NCBI GenBank assembly: GCA_028281665.1 | Contig: JANQJK010000027.1 | Location: 62,001-126,000, forward strand | DNA length: 64,000 bases | Reading direction: 5' to 3' | Source: Hyphococcus sp. | Lineage (GTDB): Bacteria > Pseudomonadota > Alphaproteobacteria > Caulobacterales > Parvularculaceae | In this document: positions 20,519-31,181 of the stretch, piece after piece | How the letters are laid out: each line of letters starts with the position of its first letter | Position numbering within the stretch: position 1 is the first letter of the stretch | Notes under the pieces: model-generated | The model's database searches: none | What the model saw: only the letters and a program-made list of their open reading frames with translations | What the model was told of the DNA's origin: nothing | Program-made: the position numbers and the translations under genes

Positions 20519-21214
20519 ATGGCGATGATAGCCCTTGTTGATGACGATGAAAACATTCTGACGTCCGTATCCATCGCGCTGGAGGCGGAGGGCCACACGG
20601 TCAAGACCTTTGAGGACGGCGCCGCCGCGCTTGAATTCATTTCGGCGACGCCCCCGGACATGGTCGTTTCCGACATAAAGATGCCGACGATGGACGGTAT
20701 GGAGCTGCTCCGCCGAATTCGCCAGAAATCCAGCCTGCCGCTGATTTTCCTGACCTCGAAGGACGAGGAAATCGACGAAGTGCTCGGGCTCACCATGGGC
20801 GCGGACGATTACGTCAAGAAACCGTTCTCGCAGCGCCTCCTGATGGAGCGGGTCAAAGCGGTGTTGCGGCGCGGACAGGCCGACGCCTCGCCGGACCCGG
20901 AAGACGAAAAGAAAATCCTGCGCCGGGAAAACCTGACGCTCGACCCTTTGCGTCACTCCTGTCTCTGGAAAGAAAAGCCGGTGGTGCTCACCGTTACGGA
21001 GTTTCTGATCCTCCACTCGCTGGCGCAGCGCCCCGGTTTCGTCAAAAGCCGCGATCAACTGATGGATGCGGCGTATGATGATCAGGTCTATGTGGATGAT
21101 CGCACCATCGACAGCCACATCAAACGCATACGGAAGAAATTCCGACAGGTGGACGGAGAATTTGACTCAATCGAAACGCTTTACGGCGTCGGTTACAAAT
21201 ACAAGGAAGACTGA
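20519..21214 (+). CDS. chvI: Response regulator ChvI (OmpR family)
   Basis: 231 aa. The receiver domain has the acidic pocket (VDDDE), the phospho-acceptor Asp52 (VVSDIKMP), Thr/Ser in FLTSKDEE, and Lys in DDYVKKPF. The C-terminal OmpR-type winged helix (about 130-231) carries [16 protein letters not shown] and [14 protein letters not shown], the ChvI-type recognition helix. It is the partner of ChvG, six nt downstream. In Rhizobiales and relatives ChvG-ChvI responds to acid or envelope stress and controls polysaccharide, motility and envelope genes. Confidence 0.93.
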
Positions 21215-21220
21215 CAGCCC

Positions 21221-22960
21221 ATGACGGGAGAGGGGCCGGCGCCCCAAAGCGGGGAACTGGGGCGGCGCCGCCGAGCGCGCGTGGCGCTGTCGCGCCTGAC
21301 GGTGACGATCGTCCTCGCCAATCTTATTGGCCTCGTTATCCTTCTGCTGGGTTCGTTCGCGCTCACCAACTACCGGGACGGGCTTATCGCGGCAAAGCTC
21401 GAAGGCGTGCGCGCCCAGGCGCAGATCATCGCCGACGTCCTCGCCCAGGTTGCGATTGACGAAACGTCCTGTCAGCCGGTCGAAGAGGCCGATGTGGAGC
21501 GCCTCGGGCAGGAAGTGGCGCTTTGTTCGCTGGCGCTCAACCAGACCGACGTGCGCGAGGTTTTCAACCGCGTCTGGGACAGTTTCGAAGGACGCGTACG
21601 CATTTTCAACGCGCCGCAGACTTTTCAGGTTCCACCCGTTTCCGACGCAAGCATCCTCCTCATCGAAGACATTGTTCTGCGAGAGGACAAAATCGAGGCG
21701 GAAAACCTGCCGCCCATCGACGACGAGGATGCGCGCGAGCCGTTCTCCCTCGACCGGGTGTGGAAAGGCGTCGTCGATTTCCTGTCCACTGATTATCATG
21801 CGGCGGCGGCGCGCCGATCACTGGAAGCGGAGCTGAACGAAGCGCTCGATTCGTCGCCCTTCGCGGAGGAGCGCGGCGCCGCGTCCGTGCGCCTTGATGA
21901 AGAGGGCGACCTCGTCGTTTCGGTGACGGTGCCGATCCGGCGCGTGCAGGCGATTTACGGCCTAGTGACGGCGGAATCCGGCGGCATTGACGATCTGGTC
22001 GAACGCGCGCGGCTCTCCATCCTTCCGTTTTTCGGGCTCGCCATGGCCGCCGCGATTTTGTCGTCACTATTGCTGACCGCCATGATCGCCCAGCCGATCC
22101 GGCAGCTTGCCATTGCCGCCGACAAGGTGCGCGAAGGCATTGCGGCGGCCGGGCGTGCACGGATCCCGGACTTTACGAACCGCAAGGACGAAATTGGCGA
22201 GCTCTCCGGATCGCTGAAATCCATGACGCAAGCGATCTATGCGCGCATCGACGCCATTGAGAGTTTTGCAGCGGATGTTTCCCACGAATTGAAAAATCCG
22301 CTGACGTCGATCCGAAGCGCGGCGGAAACCTTGCAGATCGCCAAGACGCCGGAGCAGCAGGAGAAACTGCTCGGCGTCATTCAGAAAGACGTCGCGCGCA
22401 TGGACCGTCTGATCACGGACATATCCAACGCGTCGCGCCTTGACGCGGAACTTGCCCGGGAAAGCCGGGAGGCGGTCGACCTCGCCCAGCTCATCAAGGA
22501 CATCGCGTCCATGTACGAACAGACGGCGAAGGACGGCGAGCCCAGGGTTGACTTCTCCGACCCGCTGCAAGGCGTCTACATTCTCGGCAATGCGGCGGCC
22601 CTTGGACAGGTCGTCCGCAACCTCATCGACAATGCGCGCTCCTTCAGCCCGCCTGGCGGGTCGGTGCGCGTCTATCTCGAAGCGCCGACCCAGCGGGCCG
22701 CCATTGCGCGCCTGGTCATTGAGGATGACGGGCCGGGCGTCCCGCCGGATAATCTCGAATCGATTTTCAACCGCTTCTATACGAAGCGCCCGGCGGGAAC
22801 GTCGTTCGGGAACAACTCAGGTCTCGGGCTGGCGATATCCCGGCAGATTGTCGAGGCCCACGGGGGACGCGTTTATGCGGAGAACCGGCTCGAAAATCCG
22901 TCCGATCCCTCGGGCCCGCGGCGCGGCGCGCGATTTATTGTTGAACTGCCCGCCGATTAA
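21221..22960 (+). CDS. chvG: Sensor histidine kinase ChvG
   Basis: 579 aa. First transmembrane helix about 27-50; a periplasmic sensor domain of ~210 residues; second helix about 265-290 (LPFFGLAMAAAILSSLLLTA); HAMP; then a HisKA domain with the phospho-acceptor His355 in DVSHELKNPLTSIRSA, and a HATPase domain with N (VRNLIDNARSF), DDGPGVP and GLGLAISRQIVEAHGGR boxes. This is the ChvG/ExoS layout. It phosphorylates ChvI. Its acidic N-terminal periplasmic loop contains two Cys (ETSCQPV and ALCSLAL). In many alphaproteobacteria hprK follows directly; here the next gene is EIIA, 88 nt downstream. Confidence 0.93.
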   Translation: MTGEGPAPQSGELGRRRRARVALSRLTVTIVLANLIGLVILLLGSFALTNYRDGLIAAKLEGVRAQAQIIADVLAQVAIDETSCQPVEEADVERLGQEVALCSLALNQTDVREVFNRVWDSFEGRVRIFNAPQTFQVPPVSDASILLIEDIVLREDKIEAENLPPIDDEDAREPFSLDRVWKGVVDFLSTDYHAAAARRSLEAELNEALDSSPFAEERGAASVRLDEEGDLVVSVTVPIRRVQAIYGLVTAESGGIDDLVERARLSILPFFGLAMAAAILSSLLLTAMIAQPIRQLAIAADKVREGIAAAGRARIPDFTNRKDEIGELSGSLKSMTQAIYARIDAIESFAADVSHELKNPLTSIRSAAETLQIAKTPEQQEKLLGVIQKDVARMDRLITDISNASRLDAELARESREAVDLAQLIKDIASMYEQTAKDGEPRVDFSDPLQGVYILGNAAALGQVVRNLIDNARSFSPPGGSVRVYLEAPTQRAAIARLVIEDDGPGVPPDNLESIFNRFYTKRPAGTSFGNNSGLGLAISRQIVEAHGGRVYAENRLENPSDPSGPRRGARFIVELPAD

Positions 22961-23048: not shown

Positions 23049-23459
23049 ATGATCGGTCTTGTTGTCGTCACCCATGGCCGGCTTGCCGAGGAGTTTCTCT
23101 CTGCGGCTGAACATGTCGTCGGGCCGCAGGAGCAGATCCGTGCGGTTTCGATCGGGCCCGATGACGATATGGAAAAGCGCCGCGAAGACATTCTCGCAGC
23201 GGCGAAGGACGTGGACTCAGGCGACGGCGTCGTCATCCTGACCGACATGTTCGGCGGCACGCCGTCTAACCTCGCCATCGCGGTCATGGAGAAGGCCAAT
23301 GCCGAGGTGGTTGCCGGGGTGAACCTGCCCATGCTGATCAAGCTGGCGACGGTGCGCGCCGACGGCGACTTGCCGGAGGCGGTAAAGGCCGCCCATGAGG
23401 CGGGCCGGAAATACATCAACGTCGCATCGTGGGTGCTGTCCGGCGAGGCGCCCGAATAG
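23049..23459 (+). CDS. PTS EIIA component, mannose (Man) family
   Basis: 136 aa. The fold motif IGLVVVTHGRLAEEF contains the phospho-acceptor His9, and VVILTDMFGGTPSNLA is the second family signature. The start is the ATG at 23049 with TGGAG seven nt upstream; the longer open frame runs backwards through chvG. In alphaproteobacteria a single EIIA-Man with HPr usually forms a regulatory phosphorelay without a sugar permease (PTS-Ntr type). It is 13 nt from the HPr gene and therefore co-transcribed. No EIIB, EIIC or EIID gene is present. Confidence 0.92.
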   Translation: MIGLVVVTHGRLAEEFLSAAEHVVGPQEQIRAVSIGPDDDMEKRREDILAAAKDVDSGDGVVILTDMFGGTPSNLAIAVMEKANAEVVAGVNLPMLIKLATVRADGDLPEAVKAAHEAGRKYINVASWVLSGEAPE

Positions 23460-23472
23460 GGCTGCGCGGGCG

Positions 23473-23748
23473 ATGACCGAAGTCCAACGCAAGGTCAGGA
23501 TCGCCAACAAACTTGGCTTTCATATTCGCCCGTCGCGGCACTTCTCCGCGCTCGCGCGATCCTGGGATGCGGAAGTTACCGTACGAAACGAAGATCGCGC
23601 AGCGCTTGCAGATTCACAGCTCGACTTGCTGATGTTGTGCGCCGTTCAGGGCTCGGAACTGGAGATTATCGCAAAAGGTCCGCAGGCGGAAGAAGCTGTG
23701 GATGCTCTCGTCAAGCTTGTCGAGGACATGTTCGGAGAGAAGGAATAG
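23473..23748 (+). CDS. HPr phosphocarrier protein (Npr-like)
   Basis: 91 aa. The active-site segment NKLGFHIRPSRHFS has His17 and the partner Arg19. The position equivalent to regulatory Ser46 is kept (ADSQLDLLML, Ser48), so the protein looks phosphorylatable by HPr kinase although no hprK gene is at this locus. It accepts phosphate from EI (PtsP or PtsI, elsewhere) and passes it to EIIA-Man. The start ATG is 13 nt after the EIIA stop. The site deviates from the usual LHARPA (FHIRPS). Confidence 0.93.
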   Translation: MTEVQRKVRIANKLGFHIRPSRHFSALARSWDAEVTVRNEDRAALADSQLDLLMLCAVQGSELEIIAKGPQAEEAVDALVKLVEDMFGEKE

Positions 23749-23876: not shown

Positions 23877-24995
23877 CTAAGCAGACGGCTCCTCGGGCAG
23901 CGCGGACAGCGTCACGCTCTGGCCGTCGCGCAAGCGTTCGCCGCCGCGGATGACGACTTTGTCTCCGGGTTTGATGTCTCCGATCACTTCAATGTACTCG
24001 CCCTCCGCCGCACCAAGATCTACATCCACCTGACGGGCCGTACGGTCCTTGCCGACAACGAATACGCTGATCCGGTCGGCGCGCAGGACCAGTGCGTCGC
24101 GCGGCGCCGCGACGACACGGCGCGCTGTTTCAGCCGGTAATGCGACGCGCACGGCCGAGCCGATATACCAGTCCGCATCGGCAAGTTCGAGACGCAGCTC
24201 CAGCATGCGTGACAGGGAATCGCCGACCGGCACGATTGCGCGCACGATTGCTTCCTTCGTCTCCGCGCCGTTGGCGACGCGGATCGTGTCGCCGGCGCTG
24301 ATATTGCGGGCGAGGCTTGCCGGCGCCCGCGCCGTCACCTCAAGCCGGTGGATGTCGACCAGACGAACGAGGCCAATGCCGGGGGTCGCATATTCGCCGA
24401 CTTGCGCTTCCTGACTGACGACGCGGCCGGCAAAAGGCGCAAGCACTTCCGTGCGTTGAAGGTTGATCGCCGTGCGCTCATGAGCGACCTCGGCTTGTCG
24501 CAGCGCCTGTCGCGCCTCATCGCGATCGGCGCGCATCTGGTCCATCGCCGATTCCGATTCGCCGGCCTCGACGCCAAGTCCTTTGAAGCGGTCGTAAAGC
24601 CGCGCAAGGTATTCAGCGCGCGATTTCAGGCGCGCGACTTCCGCGCCGCTGTCCGAATAGGCCAGTTCCGCATCGCTTTTCTCGATCCGCGCGATGACGT
24701 CGCCTTCATCGACCTCGGCGCCGATCTCGGCCACCCACTCGATTTTCCCGGATGTCGCGGCGGCGACCAGACTGTCGCGGGTGGAGACCACGGATCCCGG
24801 CGTTTCGGCGTGGGGCGCCAACTCGCGTTCTTCTGCTTTAGCCACGGCGACAACCGCCGGCGGCGGACCGCTTTGTTGCTCCGTCGCGCCGGCGTCTGCA
24901 TCGACGCCGGTCGCGTCGGCATAAAAATATGCTGTCGACCCTGCTGCAACGAGAATGACAGCGGCGGACGTTGCAAAGATAATGTTTCGGTTCAT
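23877..24995 (-). CDS. RND efflux periplasmic adaptor (HlyD/AcrA-like)
   Basis: 372 aa. An N-terminal membrane anchor (about 5-26, no lipobox Cys) is followed by a split biotinyl-lipoyl domain (SGKIEWVAEIGAEVDEGDVI and EVLAPFAGRVVSQEAQVGEY). A helical hairpin of ~75 residues separates the halves (about 110-190), then the beta-barrel and membrane-proximal domains. It links the inner-membrane RND pump to an outer-membrane channel, and no TolC-like gene is adjacent. It is downstream of the permease gene (14-nt gap), the reverse of the usual adaptor-permease order. Confidence 0.92.
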   Translation of the reverse strand: MNRNIIFATSAAVILVAAGSTAYFYADATGVDADAGATEQQSGPPPAVVAVAKAEERELAPHAETPGSVVSTRDSLVAAATSGKIEWVAEIGAEVDEGDVIARIEKSDAELAYSDSGAEVARLKSRAEYLARLYDRFKGLGVEAGESESAMDQMRADRDEARQALRQAEVAHERTAINLQRTEVLAPFAGRVVSQEAQVGEYATPGIGLVRLVDIHRLEVTARAPASLARNISAGDTIRVANGAETKEAIVRAIVPVGDSLSRMLELRLELADADWYIGSAVRVALPAETARRVVAAPRDALVLRADRISVFVVGKDRTARQVDVDLGAAEGEYIEVIGDIKPGDKVVIRGGERLRDGQSVTLSALPEEPSA

Positions 24996-25009: not shown

Positions 25010-28000
25010 TTATTCAGCAGGCTGAGGAACGCTATCGCCGCGCGCCAGCGCCGGCATGGATTGCGCGCCGAGTTGCAAAAGCGCCGGCAAAAGCAGAAGC
25101 GTGAACAGCGTGGATACCGCCATGCCGCCGACGATGATGGTGGCGAGGCCGCGATAGATCACGCTGCCGGCGCCGGGGGAGAGAACAAGCGGCAGCATTC
25201 CCATGAGCGAGGTGGACGTCGACATGAAGATGGGACGAATGCGCAGGTTCAACGCATCGCGCACGGCGTCCGGCCGCGATTTGCCGGCGGCTTCGGAAGC
25301 GCGGGTCTGAGAGACCAGCAGAATTGCGTTGTTAACGACGAGCCCCAGGAGAATGATGAAGCCGATCATGCCGAGAAGATCCAGCGGCAACGGATTGATG
25401 AGGTCGAGCCCGCGGATGGCGAGAACGCCGCCGACCGTCGCCATGGGCAGCGTGACAATCACAAAGGCTGCATCTTTTACCGACTTAAAGAGCGCGGCCA
25501 TGATCAGAAAGAGGATCGCGATGGCGAGGAAGAAATTCCCGCCAAGGTTTTTCACGGCGCGGGCGAGCGCATCCGCATCGCCTCCCCATTTCAACGATGC
25601 GCCGGCAGGCAGCGTTTCATAAAGGCGGGGCACGGCGTTCGACTGCAAGGCGTCAACCGCCGGCCCGAGCGCCATGCCTTCGGGCGGGGAAATGCCGAGC
25701 GTGATCGTTCTGCGTCCGTCGACCCGGCTTATCTGCTGTGGTCCGACGCTGCGGTCTGTGGTCACGAGTTCGCCCAGGGGAACCACGGCGCCGGTTGGCG
25801 TCGCGATCGGCGCGGAGTCGAGATATTCCGGCTCCGTCCATTCCTTCGCCTTCAAGATGATGTCGATGCGGCCGTCTTCATGGAAGAACTCTCCAAGCCA
25901 GGCGCCGTCGCCGAGGGCGCGCACGGCGCGGGCGACGCTTTCGCGGGTCATGCCGACTTCCGCGATGCGACGATCGTTCGGAATGAGCCGCAACTCCGGC
26001 GTCACGACTTGCGGGTCCGGGTTCGGCCAGACCTGTGCGCCGGGCAGCGCCTCCTGAATAATCTGCGTTGTTGCAGGGATCGATGCGGTCAGCGCTTCAT
26101 AGTCGGCGGCCTGCACTTTGAGGCGAACCGATCCCTGACCGCCCCAGTTCCCGAAAAGATCCCCTTGCGCCGCGAAAACACGCGTATCGGGAAAACCCGA
26201 AAGGATTTCTTCGTTGACGAGGGCGACCATTTCGTCGATGCGCGACTGGTCCAGAACGCGGATGCCGACATTGCCGCCCCACGCCGCACTGAACAGATAG
26301 TAGTTCTTCAATGCCGGCTCTTTTTCGCCGTCCATATAGGGTTGCAGTCTTTCAACGACGACCTCGGCGAATTCTTCGCGGATCATATCGGCGCTGGCGC
26401 CAGACGGAAAATTGACAAACGCGTCCACGGCGTCGCGCTTCACCGGCGGCAGGTAATTCAATTGCGGCCAGAGCAGAAAGCCGACAATAATCGGCGCGCC
26501 CGTTAAGGCGGCGATAATGGCGATGCGGCGCGAATTGGTCGCCGTCGCGCGCATAATGAAATCAGCAATAGGTCCGGCGAAGTTCGCGCGCTTTGACGTA
26601 GCGGCGCTGTCGTCGTCTTTCAGCAGCAGTCGCGCGCCCGTCGGCAACAATGTCACGGCGACCACGAGGCTGAATGAGACCGCGATGGCGATTGTCAGCG
26701 CCAGGTCGGCGAAGAGCTGACCTTCCACGTCTTCAAAGAACATGATCGGAATAAAGATTGCGATGGTCGTCACCGTCGACGCAAAGAGCGCGCCGAATAC
26801 CTGGCCGACGGCGGTCTCCGCGGCCTTCATCGGCGACCGGCCTTCCTCGCGCTGCCGCACAAAATTCTCAAGGACAACGATTGCGGCGTCCAGCACCATG
26901 CCGGTGGCGAAGGCAAGGCCGGCAAGAGAGATGACGTTGATCGACCGGCCGAAGAGATTGAGGATAATAATCGTCGCCATCAGCGAAATCGGGATCCCCG
27001 CGGCGATAATCAGGGTTGCCTTGGCGCGCCGCAGGAACAGCCAGAGGGAGCCGACGGCGAGGATGACGCCAAGCAGAAGATTATTTGTCAGCAGGCTGAT
27101 GGCGCGTTTAATGAAGACCGACGGGTCGAAACTCTTTTGAATGGAGTAACCCATTTCGGCGAGCGGCCCGGCGTTCATTTCGTCGAGCACCGCGGTCAGC
27201 GCGTCGATTGACTCAAGGACATTGGCGCCGGGTTCTCGCATAACCCGCATGCCGATTGCCGGATTTCCGTTCTGGTAGACAACGCCGCCCTGCCAGTCCG
27301 GCGTCACGGTAACGTCGGCGACGTCCCCGAGCGTCACCGGCGCGCCATCGCGCCAGGCAAGGATGGTCTGTTCAAGTTGGTCGGCCTCGAAGCGTCCCTC
27401 AAACCGCATTGTGTAATTGCGCCGCCCGACCTCGACGCGCCCGCCGGTAACATCCGTTGAGCGGTTTACCGTCTGCGAAATCTCATCGAGCGTGACGCCG
27501 AGTTGCGCGGCGAGAAACGGATCGAATTCGACGCGGACAATTTCTTCGCCTTCGTCGGAGTTAATGTTGACCCCGCCGACCCCGGGAACGGCTTCGAGCG
27601 CCGGCAGGATCCGTTGTTCTGCGAAATCCCGGAGCCGCACGCCCTCCTGTGCGTTGCCGGGCAAGCGCTGCAAAAAGAGGAAGATGAGCGTCTCGCCGGC
27701 CTCCTGTCCGCCGCCCAGATTGATGCGCGGGCGTTCGGCTTCGGCGGGCAGGCCGCGAACGCGCTGCAAGCGCGCATTCACTTCCGTGAACGCCTGATCC
27801 ATGTCTGCGCCGAGGTTGAATTCGAGCGAAATCCATCCGCCGCCGGTGTTTGACCAGGACTGCATGCTCCTCAGCCCGGGGATGCCGCGCAGTTCGCGCT
27901 CGATCGGCTCGACGATCTCGCTCTCGATTTCCCGGGGGGAAGCGGCGCGCCATCGGGTCTCAATGCCGATCTGCGGGCGCTCGATCTGGGGAAAAAGCTG

Positions 28001-28102
28001 CACCGGCAGTTGCGAAACGGAAAGCAGTCCGAGCAGCGTAATAACCGCCAGAACGACGCCGGCGGCGGCCGGATTCTGAAGGCAAATCCTTGTAAGGCCC
28101 AT
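25010..28102 (-). CDS. RND efflux permease (AcrB/HAE superfamily)
   Basis: 1030 aa with the classical 12-helix, two-large-loop RND layout: TM1 at about 13-32, first porter loop about 33-330, TM2-6, helix VII near 515-540, second loop, TM8-12. At the TM4 proton-relay position the AcrB Asp-Asp pair is Asp-Ala (GMVLDAAIVVLEN). At TM10 the AcrB Lys940 equivalent is Asn (GLVVNNAILLV). This pattern marks a divergent RND subfamily seen in environmental proteobacteria rather than a drug pump of the AcrB type. Substrate unknown. GGGAG precedes the ATG. It is the first gene of a two-gene operon with the adaptor. Confidence 0.92.
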   Translation of the reverse strand: MGLTRICLQNPAAAGVVLAVITLLGLLSVSQLPVQLFPQIERPQIGIETRWRAASPREIESEIVEPIERELRGIPGLRSMQSWSNTGGGWISLEFNLGADMDQAFTEVNARLQRVRGLPAEAERPRINLGGGQEAGETLIFLFLQRLPGNAQEGVRLRDFAEQRILPALEAVPGVGGVNINSDEGEEIVRVEFDPFLAAQLGVTLDEISQTVNRSTDVTGGRVEVGRRNYTMRFEGRFEADQLEQTILAWRDGAPVTLGDVADVTVTPDWQGGVVYQNGNPAIGMRVMREPGANVLESIDALTAVLDEMNAGPLAEMGYSIQKSFDPSVFIKRAISLLTNNLLLGVILAVGSLWLFLRRAKATLIIAAGIPISLMATIIILNLFGRSINVISLAGLAFATGMVLDAAIVVLENFVRQREEGRSPMKAAETAVGQVFGALFASTVTTIAIFIPIMFFEDVEGQLFADLALTIAIAVSFSLVVAVTLLPTGARLLLKDDDSAATSKRANFAGPIADFIMRATATNSRRIAIIAALTGAPIIVGFLLWPQLNYLPPVKRDAVDAFVNFPSGASADMIREEFAEVVVERLQPYMDGEKEPALKNYYLFSAAWGGNVGIRVLDQSRIDEMVALVNEEILSGFPDTRVFAAQGDLFGNWGGQGSVRLKVQAADYEALTASIPATTQIIQEALPGAQVWPNPDPQVVTPELRLIPNDRRIAEVGMTRESVARAVRALGDGAWLGEFFHEDGRIDIILKAKEWTEPEYLDSAPIATPTGAVVPLGELVTTDRSVGPQQISRVDGRRTITLGISPPEGMALGPAVDALQSNAVPRLYETLPAGASLKWGGDADALARAVKNLGGNFFLAIAILFLIMAALFKSVKDAAFVIVTLPMATVGGVLAIRGLDLINPLPLDLLGMIGFIILLGLVVNNAILLVSQTRASEAAGKSRPDAVRDALNLRIRPIFMSTSTSLMGMLPLVLSPGAGSVIYRGLATIIVGGMAVSTLFTLLLLPALLQLGAQSMPALARGDSVPQPAE

Positions 28103-28252
28103 CGCGCGATGCTCCCAGCAACCTGGCGGATTTGTTGATGAGTCCCTTATGCGCCTTTCACCGACGCACGCATCCGCTAATCGATCAAACGCAGGGATGG
28201 TGCGGCGAACCGGGTTTACGGTCCGCTCTGTTTAGAGCTTTGAAGGAAGCTG

Positions 28253-30628
28253 TTAATCTTTCTTGCGTTTTTCCGCTTCGAGCTCGGCGCGCATCTGCTC
28301 AAGTTCCGCTCGTTCCCGGGCAATCCGGTCGGCGGCTTCGCGGAGCGCCTCTTCGCGCAATTTCAGCATTTCTTCCATGTGTTCGGCGCGGCTTTCCCGT
28401 TCGTCGTGGCGGCGCTCGCTTTCGCGATGCATCCGTTGAAAGGCCCGTTCGCGCGCGCGCTCGGCGCGCTCGATTTCGCGCATCATCCGTTCACGGTCTA
28501 TTTCCGTCCGTTCCATTGCGCGTTGCGCCCGCTCCATCTGGCGTTCAGCGTCGCGGCGAGCCTTTTCCGCTGTCCGCTTCATTTTTTCGCGCGCGCGTTC
28601 GATGGCTTCGCGCTGTTCGTCGGACAGGTCGTCGCCATCGATCACGAATGCAAATTGCGAGAAGTTCTCTGCGAGATCCTCCCAGTTATCAAATTCAACG
28701 CCATAGTCATGCAGCGCTTGTTCGATGTCCTCGCTGTACTCCGCAATGTCGAATTCCATATCGCCGAAATGCGCCACCATGCCTTCGAGATCGTCGAGCA
28801 TCGCAAAGCCTTCAAAGTTCTCAAAGCTCTCAAACCCCTCGAAGGTCTCGTCGAGATTGGCGCGCCATTCCCCGAAACGGCCGGCAAGGCGCATTTCGAG
28901 GCGCTCTCCGAGAGAAAGGCCGTCCGCAACCGGCGGCGCCGGAGCGACAGGCGCCGGGTCGGGCATGACGGAGACATCCGGCGCCGGCATGGGCGCGGGC
29001 GCCGGATCGATCGTGATGTCGATATCGGGCGCGGGCGCTGGCGCAGGAACGATGTCGATATCGACGTCAGGCGCAGGCGGTGCAGCAGGCGCAGGCGAGG
29101 CGGCCACGACGGCAGCCGGCGCGATCGGCGTCAGTTCGACCTTCCGCATCATGCGCGGTTGCGGCGGCATGGGCGTGTCGGGGTCCACAATGGGCGCCGG
29201 ATCGATGTGCTCGCCATCGGCAAGAACTTCGAAGTGAAGGTGCGGGCCTGTCGCGCGACCTGTTGCGCCAACGGCGCCGATGGTGTCGCCGGCTTTGACG
29301 CTGTCGCCCCTGCGCACGATGTAGCTGTCGAGCTGGGCATAGCGGGTCACCAAGCCATGACCGTGATCGATTACGACGACATTGCCCCAGGCTTCCGAGC
29401 CGTTGTAGCGCGGCGTCGCGGCAACAACCTTGCCGTCCCCTGCGGCGCGCACCGGCGTGCCCGTGGCCGCCGCAATATCCATCCCTTTATGGAACTTCTT
29501 TTCCTTGCTGATCGGATCGAACCGCTCGCCGAATGTGGACGTGATCCGCCCCTCCACAGGAACAACCGTAAGCGCGTCTTTTGCCGGCGGCGGTGCAACC
29601 GCGAGAGCGGCCTGACCGAAGGCGAGGACGAGCGCCAGCAAGCCGCTGGCAATCAGTACGATCTTGCCCCCGAGGGTTATGAAGGGCGCCGCGGCCCGGC
29701 CGGAGAGAATCGCGTCAAGGCGTTCGCGGCGCGAGCGTTTGTCGAAGGGTGTGAACGACGGGACAAGCGCATGCTGAGGCGAAGAAAGGCCCGCCGTGAT
29801 TTTGAGACTCTCTACGAAACAGCGCGCGTAGGATTTTCGATTGACGCCGCTGCGAATGACGAGAGCGTCCGCCGCCTGCTCGGCCGCAAGCTGCGCATGA
29901 GCGATAATGCGGCGCATGAAAGGATTGAACCAGAACAGCGCTTTTGCAAGGCCGCAAAATGCAAACAGCCAGGTGTCGCCGCGTTTGACATGGGCAAGCT
30001 CATGGGCGCCCATCAGGATGGCGTCGTCTGTTGAGACACGCTCCAGAAGGCTGGGCGGCATGAGCACGACGGGCCGGACAAATCCGTGTACGCACACAGA
30101 CGTCACCGCATCGGAGTAGGCGAAGCGCACAGGGCCGCGCACGCCGATCAGCCGGCGCCAGTCGCGCAACCCGTCCATGAGACGCACATCGTCGATCGGG
30201 TAGCTGTATCGGACGCGATAAGAGAATCCGACAAGGCGTAGAATGCCAAGGGCGGCGAACAGGACGAAACCGTAAAAATACAAATCCGCAACGGCGTTCA
30301 GGACGGTCGCCATTTCAATAGCGGGCCCTTGCGGCGCGGCGGTGATCATTGATGCAGGCACGGCGATCATTGCCGTTTCAGGCGCCGCCATAGGCGGCAA
30401 CGGTTTGGCGGCGCGAAGGGTAAGACCGAAGGCGGCGGCAAACGGCGCTGCAATCACGGGCAGGGCGGCGATGAGCAGTGCGGACGGCCAGACCGTCGCC
30501 TCCGCACCGCCGCCGGACCGGCGGTTCAGAAACGCTGCGCCAAGAAAAACAAGCGGCGCCCAGACAACGGACGCGGCGAGGCACAGATAGAATGCGTCGA
30601 TGATTTCTGTTGTCGGGATCGCGCTCAT
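28253..30628 (-). CDS. BlaR1-like M56 metallopeptidase fused to an M23 (LytM) peptidase and a coiled-coil tail
   Basis: 791 aa. The M56 part (about 1-345) has transmembrane helices near 10-34, 47-70, 114-135 and 321-343, and the zinc motif HELAH at 209-213 with a downstream Glu (AEQAAD, about 250). Beyond the last helix lies a complete M23 domain (about 355-480) with His380, Asp384, His463 and His465. Then come a Pro/Ala/Asp repeat linker (about 486-556), an acidic Phe/Glu/Asp segment (about 575-650) and a long Glu/Arg coiled coil (about 660-791). Like BlaR1/MecR1 it follows a BlaI repressor gene (4-nt overlap), but the usual penicillin-binding sensor domain is replaced by M23. It probably senses wall damage and cleaves BlaI, which is inference. 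Confidence 0.88.
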   Translation of the reverse strand: MSAIPTTEIIDAFYLCLAASVVWAPLVFLGAAFLNRRSGGGAEATVWPSALLIAALPVIAAPFAAAFGLTLRAAKPLPPMAAPETAMIAVPASMITAAPQGPAIEMATVLNAVADLYFYGFVLFAALGILRLVGFSYRVRYSYPIDDVRLMDGLRDWRRLIGVRGPVRFAYSDAVTSVCVHGFVRPVVLMPPSLLERVSTDDAILMGAHELAHVKRGDTWLFAFCGLAKALFWFNPFMRRIIAHAQLAAEQAADALVIRSGVNRKSYARCFVESLKITAGLSSPQHALVPSFTPFDKRSRRERLDAILSGRAAAPFITLGGKIVLIASGLLALVLAFGQAALAVAPPPAKDALTVVPVEGRITSTFGERFDPISKEKKFHKGMDIAAATGTPVRAAGDGKVVAATPRYNGSEAWGNVVVIDHGHGLVTRYAQLDSYIVRRGDSVKAGDTIGAVGATGRATGPHLHFEVLADGEHIDPAPIVDPDTPMPPQPRMMRKVELTPIAPAAVVAASPAPAAPPAPDVDIDIVPAPAPAPDIDITIDPAPAPMPAPDVSVMPDPAPVAPAPPVADGLSLGERLEMRLAGRFGEWRANLDETFEGFESFENFEGFAMLDDLEGMVAHFGDMEFDIAEYSEDIEQALHDYGVEFDNWEDLAENFSQFAFVIDGDDLSDEQREAIERAREKMKRTAEKARRDAERQMERAQRAMERTEIDRERMMREIERAERARERAFQRMHRESERRHDERESRAEHMEEMLKLREEALREAADRIARERAELEQMRAELEAEKRKKD

Positions 30629-31011
30629 GACTGATCCTCCGCTTTGCGCAACATGGTTTCAAGTTCGTCGAGTTCTGCCTCTGAAAGCAGCTTTGAGTCG
30701 GAGAAGAACGCCGCGGCCGGCGCCCGGTCGAGTTCCAGGACGCGGGTGGAAAAGTCAGAGATCATCCGGCCGAGAACCGACACCTTGGTGACTTTCGCTT
30801 CGTAATAATTGACCCCGTCCCGGCCGTGCTTCGAAATCAGTCCCTTTTCGCTCATCCGTTCGAGCACGGTGCGCACCGTCGAATAGGACCAGCCGAATTC
30901 ATCGGCGATCTCGTCGTGAATGGTCCGGGCCGTGAGGTCGTCGCCGCGCCACAACAGTTTCAGGATCGCCAGTTCCGGCTTCGTGGGATTGTCGAAGGGT
31001 TTGCCGCTCAT
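30625..31011 (-). CDS. BlaI/MecI/CopY-family transcriptional repressor
   Basis: 128 aa from the ATG at 31011. The frame extends 14 codons upstream without similarity. The N-terminal winged helix has the family core PTKPELAILKLLW, WSYSTVRTVLERMSEKGLI and the wing HGRDGVNYYEA. The C-terminal dimerisation region (about 75-128) carries the segment usually cut on induction. Its stop overlaps the M56 gene start (ATGA), as in blaI-blaR pairs. A palindromic TACAATTGT site 50 nt upstream is a good candidate autoregulatory operator. No beta-lactamase gene is adjacent. Confidence 0.92.
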   Translation of the reverse strand: MSGKPFDNPTKPELAILKLLWRGDDLTARTIHDEIADEFGWSYSTVRTVLERMSEKGLISKHGRDGVNYYEAKVTKVSVLGRMISDFSTRVLELDRAPAAAFFSDSKLLSEAELDELETMLRKAEDQS

Positions 31012-31060
31012 ATCGTCCCGGCGAACGGGATTGCCCCCGCGCCGTTCCCTCAAATGGTGT

Positions 31061-31070
31061 TACAATTGTC
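31061..31070 (-). promoter_or_regulatory. Candidate BlaI operator
   Basis: TACAATTGTC contains the perfect palindrome ACAATTGT (31062-31069) and resembles the TACA/TGTA half-sites bound by BlaI and MecI. It lies about 50 nt upstream of the repressor start, where a promoter is expected. Confidence 0.45.
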
Positions 31071-31181
31071 GCGAGGCTAGCGGATTGCCACAGATGTCGC
31101 AACATGGAGCCCCCGTCCGGCGGGCGCTTTTGCGACGAACCGTTGAAATGATGCGCCGAGGCGGGCGGGCGGGGCCCTTGA

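Follow-up and report, generated by a model that had tools for sequence, protein, structure and literature searches.

The window analysed here is a stretch of 64,000 nucleotides from Hyphococcus sp. (contig JANQJK010000027.1, positions 62,001 to 126,000). On its minus strand, a gene for a BlaI-type repressor is followed by a gene for a membrane protein that joins an M56 (BlaR1-type) protease to an M23 (LytM) domain. We propose, with a probability of about 0.5, that this protein is a BlaI-M56 antirepressor receptor whose M23 domain senses the cell wall by binding to it, and that it controls its own operon and, at least in relatives, an adjacent RND pump. The proposal is drawn from comparison of sequences and predicted folds.

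At rest, BlaI would sit on two operators in the blaI promoter, sites recognized by their conservation, and would repress the blaI-m56m23 operon. The M23 fold, placed in the periplasm, would mainly bind peptidoglycan or a wall-associated partner, with a long helix extending into the periplasm. A change in the state of the wall would shift the contacts of the M23 domain and of this tail. This, in turn, would release the M56 protease, which faces the cytoplasm and is predicted from homology to cleave itself between Ser291 and Phe292 and to cut BlaI between Phe102 and Phe103. The operon would then be derepressed, and the adjacent RND pump as well. In a sister clade and two members of the genus, derepression of the pump could be direct, through an operator seen upstream of acrB to which BlaI would bind. 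In the clade of the window, the pump would be reached only via read-through or a shared LytTR-like element.

The best-known role of BlaI-M56 systems is, of course, that of a beta-lactam switch. In this case a wall-enzyme fold is in the sensor position, with a multidrug-type pump encoded alongside. If the proposal is true, direct signalling from wall to efflux becomes testable, and the M56 module has been rewired by a swap of its sensor. A bolder version can be offered only tentatively: that these proteins are a class of receptor in which a wall-hydrolase fold, cutting weakly or not at all, senses peptidoglycan and drives destruction of a repressor, coupling wall state to RND efflux without beta-lactam.

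The receptor and its repressor

An initial annotation, made from the letters of the sequence, had described an M56-M23 fusion in which the M23 domain replaces the BlaR1 sensor. Both claims held up. One open frame of 791 residues (28253-30628, minus strand) matches Pfam M56 at residues 22-289 (94.1 bits; cut-off 31) and Pfam M23 at residues 378-477 (114.6 bits; cut-off 28.7), and the M23 domain occupies the position of the penicillin sensor. In the receptor, Pfam gives no domains other than these two, with no penicillin-binding (SxxK) sensor found. The NCBIfam model blaR1_generic covers just residues 109-324, at 43.9 bits against a cut-off of 400. Because the penicillin sensor was looked for and is absent, the receptor is not classed as BlaR1 or MecR1; it is a putative M56-family, BlaI-linked antirepressor, which may work as those proteins do. 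Structure prediction, a check suggested in the annotation, places AlphaFold helices at residues 319-343 and 670-790.

The protease half matches BlaR1 in fold and in sequence. BlaR1 was found by VIA-align among the Foldseek candidates for the receptor, though outside the best 50 Foldseek matches. The window keeps HELAH at 209-213, as had been claimed, and His209, Glu210, His213, Glu250, Asp254, Phe292, Arg300 and Arg301 are invariant in all 28 aligned sequences (the window and 27 relatives). Ser291 is present in 26 of these, with Thr in two. The receptor sequence thus contains the Ser-Phe autocleavage loop and its Arg pair; autocleavage of BlaR1 is reported at Ser283-Phe284 (PMC9834060).

The architecture recurs. 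A scan of genome contigs confirmed 97 relatives, and 80 loci were kept, with the 28 closest numbered L085 to L112. The close relatives that carry names are Parvularculaceae, mostly Marinicaulis (now Hyphococcus), joined by metagenome-assembled genomes (MAGs) titled only Alphaproteobacteria. The annotation had proposed a search for related BlaI-M56-M23 loci; M56 and M23 share one frame in 26 of the 28 loci of this group, so the fusion is not a product of chance. The exceptions are L108, split over two frames, and L111, which has no M23. Profiles find one further fusion in the other 52 loci (L120, Nitratireductor). Within the genus, 24 of 28 genomes have an orthologue (the window's own included, with that of G027 split). 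The four that do not (G006, G007, G010, G015) are 84-86% complete, and G007 has a short form only. Nine such shorter fusions were found in the genus and in its family and order; each has a blaI nearby and ends 5-57 residues past the M23 match. Counting 27 long fusions, these nine and L120, HExxH is retained in 37 of 37.

A wider search of 385 alphaproteobacterial genomes, with at most four candidates per genome scored, gave a match spanning both domains in at least two (G000 and G036 among the matches listed). Among plasmids, none of 3881 matching records covers 80% of the M56-M23 query at one place. One genome, G033, has tandem M56 genes after blaI (L060:7320-10483), the first without M23 and the second with it.

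The repressor is matched by Penicillinase_R (PF03965) along its whole length (model positions 2-114 of 115). Its gene overlaps that of the receptor by 4 nt (30625-30628), just as annotated, and the overlap is 1 or 4 nt in all 27 loci checked. An alignment to MecI spanning residues 10-122 puts the Asn101-Phe102 cut, published for BlaI (PMC9834060), at Phe102-Phe103 of the window BlaI, where cleavage is predicted. By eye, the second Phe (Phe103) is present in all 29 aligned BlaI sequences that are cognate to a receptor, that of the window among them; it corresponds to the Phe in the autocleavage loop of the receptor. A BlaI paralogue on contig C20 of the window genome (L001) lacks the predicted Phe cut site.

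A promoter-like sequence before blaI is flanked by two ACANNTGT inverted repeats that lie 28 bp apart. The annotation had named one operator; ACAATTGT at 31062-31069 is indeed there, accompanied by a second one. Of 28 genus genomes, 22 have the pair, each exactly once; among them are all 17 with completeness of 90% or more and contamination of 5% or less. The reversed control occurs in none. Six genomes are without the pair: the four without an orthologue, G019 (whose contig begins within blaI) and G011 (a single site). In the sister clade, two sites lie 19 bp apart upstream of blaI in L106, L109 and L111, and one site is found in L107, L110 and L112. The blaI operators are thus real as conserved sites, which BlaI would be expected to bind. 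A genome-wide search for further BlaI sites (GCGACANNTGTCGC, at most 2 mismatches) was uninformative, with 318 matches per strand against 350 in the control.

With an M23 domain in the place of the sensor, a repressor gene that overlaps and a real operator, a wall-linked rather than a beta-lactam-linked signal, as the annotation suggested, is reasonable. The intact catalytic M23 that it attached to this idea is unsupported.

Binding or cutting by the M23 domain

All four M23 residues that had been listed (His380, Asp384, His463, His465) are present, in the window and in every one of the 27 aligned sequences that have M23, window included. The letters of L111 aligned at these positions are an alignment accident, since L111 has no M23. 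The domain is nevertheless not complete, because the second catalytic His is Gln432. In M23 enzymes this His lies about 30 residues before the HxH motif (His260 in LytM, His329 in lysostaphin; PMC9662197). Gln432 lies at that position, 31 residues before His463, and an M23 enzyme of solved structure, described as the mutant H216A, has its Ala aligned there.

Among the 27 long fusions, position 432 is His in 22 and Gln in five (the window and four relatives), and these five are grouped by a branch supported at 99/100. At the equivalent position the nine short fusions have Gln in five and His in two; in the remaining two (G031, G007) the zinc site is wholly lost. L120 has all five residues. This gives 25 of 37 fusions with all five, 10 with Gln and two without a zinc site. 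The site is therefore eroded in 12 of 37 fusions and in 0 of 28 stand-alone M23 domains from other alphaproteobacteria (28 of 28 with all five residues), a control that consists of the best profile matches and leans canonical, with rows related to each other in both sets. Loss of HELAH and of M23 residues in close relatives had been named in the annotation as evidence that would count against it. Such loss is found in part for M23: its active site has decayed in several lineages, the protease motif in none of the fusions examined. The two short fusions without a zinc site (L058 in G031, L065 in G007) keep HExxH, and their M23 folds are likely pure sensor domains.

Selection was examined as the ratio of nonsynonymous to synonymous change (dN/dS), where values are rough and dS is high. 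Between the window and its nearest relative, L088, the ratio is 0.044 for M23 and 0.043 for M56. Three other comparisons in the Gln clade give 0.10-0.17 for M23 and 0.06-0.09 for M56, for overall ranges of 0.044 to 0.167 and 0.043 to 0.092. By these estimates, the M23 domain is under purifying selection in the Gln432 clade despite the missing catalytic His. It is selected, yet not strictly for its catalytic set, and binding to the wall is therefore favoured over cutting, with cutting possible in the His432 majority. The annotation had left open "cutting or binding" of peptidoglycan. Binding survives better; cutting fares worse, given the Gln432 clade, the two lost zinc sites and L111.

Degenerate LytM proteins such as EnvC, NlpD and Csd2 also use the M23 fold for binding, with catalytic residues lost (PMC9662197), and a structure comparison places EnvC and DipM with the closest folds. 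Unlike the window domain, which is joined to a membrane protease and retains its zinc ligands, EnvC, NlpD and Csd2 act on amidases or partner enzymes.

The alternative that survives best, although it is unlikely, is that M23 is a working wall endopeptidase, so that the receptor senses by cutting, or BlaI merely controls a membrane-tethered wall hydrolase. The zinc ligands and the base of the HxH motif are, of course, present in all 27 long fusions, 22 of which have the second His too, and that His only "might participate" in activation of water (PMC9662197). Further, a peptidoglycan dipeptide is reported to inactivate the BlaI of B. licheniformis and to loosen it from DNA (PMC3305447), so that wall fragments may also act inside the cell or feed the circuit. 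Nevertheless, Gln432 is fixed in the window clade, five of nine short fusions have Gln, two of nine have lost the zinc site, and L111 has lost M23 altogether, all with HExxH kept. Paired His432 and Gln432 relatives offer a ready comparison of binding with cutting.

The C-terminal part had been annotated as a Pro/Ala/Asp linker, an acidic segment and a coiled coil. Linker and acidic stretch stand, as does a helix of about 120 residues. A classical coiled coil is not established, the best hydrophobic period being 3.59, and amphipathic helix is the safe wording; its hydrophobic moment was equalled by 0 of 300 shuffles.

That this helix is itself the sensor, or binds a partner, with M23 merely anchoring the protein to the wall, is a poorer explanation still. 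Tails without M23 do exist. L111 (L111:5953-8142) keeps M56, the last helix and the tail, without M23 and with no RND match adjoining. The distant L118 (Pacificimonas pallii, L118:5114-11696) has M56, a Pro/Ala linker and a charged helical tail without M23; matches to hlyD and acrB come after it, which may be a separate association of M56 with a pump. The second BlaI-M56 pair of the window genome (L001, contig C20) has an M56 protein of 487 residues, without M23, that also ends in a charged, helix-like segment, and the final 30 or so residues of the tail are alike among relatives (by eye). Against this, the nine short M56-M23 fusions stop soon after M23, and the tail evolves faster. Between the window and L088, dN/dS is 0.23 for residues 483-664 (linker and acidic segment) and 0.20 for the tail, against 0.04 for M56 and M23; over three non-saturated comparisons the tail gives 0.20-0.34, against 0.04-0.17 for M23.

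The adjacent pump and its promoter

Directly downstream of the receptor gene, on the same strand, is an RND pump operon that the initial annotation missed. With acrB scored, and hlyD counted where the contig reaches it, 27 loci have sequence beyond the receptor gene (L085 stops at a contig edge), and in 24 of them acrB comes next on the same strand. It is missing beside the receptor in the sister pair L093 and L097 and in L111, so that the only lineage among the 28 closest to have lost M23 is also without the pump there. The gap between receptor gene and acrB is 122-290 bp in the window and 23 of these loci; the split copy L108 is not comparable. Around the nine short fusions, 14-19 kb of sequence holds no match to acrB or hlyD at E 1e-10.

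The operator pattern ACANNTGT is found before acrB in 7 of 25 loci, where 0.41 would be expected by chance, although the rows are related and not independent, so that a binomial estimate exaggerates the excess. The site always reads GCGACANNTGT(C/A)GC and lies 36-65 bp 5' of the start codon. Its carriers are all five sister-clade loci that have the pump, plus L103 and L108. Direct control of the pump by BlaI is a good prediction for these lineages. In the window, which lacks this operator, read-through or a shared direct repeat would be needed.

Such a repeat is found. The upstream regions of blaI and acrB have in common the consensus TTCRYCGCA-N12-TTCRYCGMW. At least 14 of its 18 letters are matched in 22 of 25 blaI loci (in two of the 22, L035 and L037, off the conserved place) and in 22 of 23 acrB loci, against 3% and 1.5% of shuffles, a test that is not independent because the motif was read off the same alignments. 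Other spacers from 8 to 17 are matched in 2-11 and 2-7 loci. An 11-base spacer was discarded: it misses the acrB site, and the measured spacer is 12. The two best sites in the window are the blaI and acrB promoters. Across the genus, genomes have 2-12 sites, against 0-3 in the control.

Binding sites of LytTR regulators are direct repeats mostly 12 bp apart (PMC6193735), and the repeat is read as a candidate LytTR box. In G022 and G025 it lies close to where a LytS-like kinase gene begins, and in G022 a LytTR regulator adjoins that gene (family models and eye); a copy with 2 mismatches lies by the start of the sole LytTR system found in the window genome. ChvI was rejected as reader: the chvI upstream regions of 15 sequences, three of these shorter than 220 bases, hold no repeat above 14/18, and the Caulobacter ChvI motif is a different one, TTGC-N3-GCAA (PMC9731502), so that LytTR is preferred. 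The genes linked by the repeat may be a small LytTR regulon, again a candidate. The repeat also stands before LytS-like/LytTR, MATE-like, TerC-like, methyltransferase-like and aldo/keto reductase-like genes (L205, L206, L207, L210, L211, L216, L217, L218, L224), named by eye except for the LytTR regulator. In L205 and L226 it overlaps the start of the longest open frame, before a likelier start.

These elements bear on a third alternative, slightly less credible than the helix as sensor, in which BlaI and the receptor regulate only themselves, and the pump is a syntenic neighbour run by a LytTR-type regulator. The wider neighbourhood is syntenic too, the majority of loci have no acrB operator, and both promoters carry the direct repeat. 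Nevertheless, the seven acrB operators far exceed chance expectation, with the sister clade complete, and the distant M56 gene of L118 also lies beside hlyD and acrB. A gene-calling or assembly artefact joining two genes is refuted by conservation (a single frame in the window and 26 of 28 loci, purifying selection on both domains), even though one MAG (L108 in G027) holds the halves in separate frames. That copy (G027:C122), with M56 and M23 halves in two overlapping frames, may reflect a frameshift, an assembly error or a true split.

Several observations weigh against a wall-binding receptor that controls the pump. Catalysis may matter in most fusions, because 25 of 37 keep all five M23 residues, and the canonical lean of the stand-alone control, together with the relatedness of the fusions to one another, tempers the contrast between the two sets. 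M23 evolves somewhat faster than M56 in three of four comparisons. The tail alone could be the sensor, given the tails of L111 and L118. L093 and L097 keep M23 without an adjoining pump, and 18 of 25 loci, the window among them, have no BlaI-type operator before acrB. The pump may be separately regulated, because the 150-bp gap holds a conserved element of its own.

Related systems and features of the window

The closest known systems are BlaR1/MecR1 with BlaI/MecI in S. aureus and B. licheniformis. These share with the window an M56 gluzincin (HExxH...ExxxD) in a membrane scaffold, an adjacent BlaI repressor, a Ser-Phe autocleavage loop and a repressor cut before Phe (PMC9834060). The window receptor differs in having M23, linker and helix instead of a penicillin sensor, with RND pump genes next to it. 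PetR/PetP of Synechocystis also pairs a BlaI-type regulator with a BlaR1-family protease and answers a signal other than beta-lactam, reported for copper (PMC7896320). It differs in controlling plastocyanin and cytochrome c6, and the relevant passages of that commentary do not mention an M23 domain.

The M23-M56 architecture already appears in a review of M23 peptidases, where M56 is among rare (<1%) catalytic partners and its role in peptidoglycan cleavage is described as not shown (PMC9662197). That entry concerns the architecture alone, with no repressor, operator or pump context in the relevant passages. The literature matches listed, mostly non-subscription, include no functional study either of M23-M56 proteins or of an RND pump under BlaI-M56 control. 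LytTR binding sites resemble the repeat described here in being direct repeats, mostly with 12-bp spacing (PMC6193735); here, the repeat is upstream of a BlaI-type operon, and binding is putative.

Table 1. Coordinates of features in the 64-kb window
Feature	Position	Strand	Basis or remark
M56-M23 fusion receptor, 791 aa	28253..30628	-	single open reading frame; Pfam, AlphaFold, relatives
M56 (BlaR1-type) membrane protease domain, residues 22-289	29762..30565	-	HELAH 209-213, Glu250, Asp254
Ser291-Phe292, predicted autocleavage site	29753..29758	-	putative equivalent of BlaR1 Ser283-Phe284, from loop position and following Arg pair
Last transmembrane helix, residues 319-343	29600..29674	-	AlphaFold helix; membrane insertion presumed
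M23/LytM domain, residues 353-482, predicted periplasmic	29183..29572	-	
Gln432 codon, in place of M23 second catalytic His	29333..29335	-	
Pro/Ala/Asp linker and acidic segment, fast evolving	28622..29182	-	
Long Glu/Arg-rich amphipathic helix, residues 670-790	28259..28621	-	AlphaFold
BlaI-type repressor, 128 aa from ATG	30625..31011	-	PF03965, 79.5 bits; 30625-31053 if from TTG
Predicted BlaI cleavage site, Phe102-Phe103	30703..30708	-	alignment to MecI; equivalent of MecI/BlaI Asn101-Phe102
Operator 1, ACATCTGT, overlapping -35	31090..31097	-	
Operator 2, ACAATTGT, immediately 3' of -10	31062..31069	-	
Predicted promoter, TTGCGA-N17-TAGCCT	31074..31102	-	pattern and conservation
Direct repeat (9 bp, 12-bp spacer), candidate LytTR box before blaI	31131..31160	-	
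Same 9-bp, 12-bp-spacer direct repeat before acrB	28180..28209	-	
RND pump permease (AcrB/AcrD/AcrF family)	25010..28102	-	PF00873; NCBIfam multidrug RND permease models below cut-offs; conserved neighbour
RND periplasmic adaptor (HlyD/MFP)	23877..24995	-	TIGR01730 above cut-off

Two further features lie near the pump genes. On the opposite strand is a ChvI/ChvG-like two-component system (20519-22960, plus strand), in which the ChvG model scores 524 bits, below its cut-off of 740. An HPr-type protein is encoded at 23395-23748.

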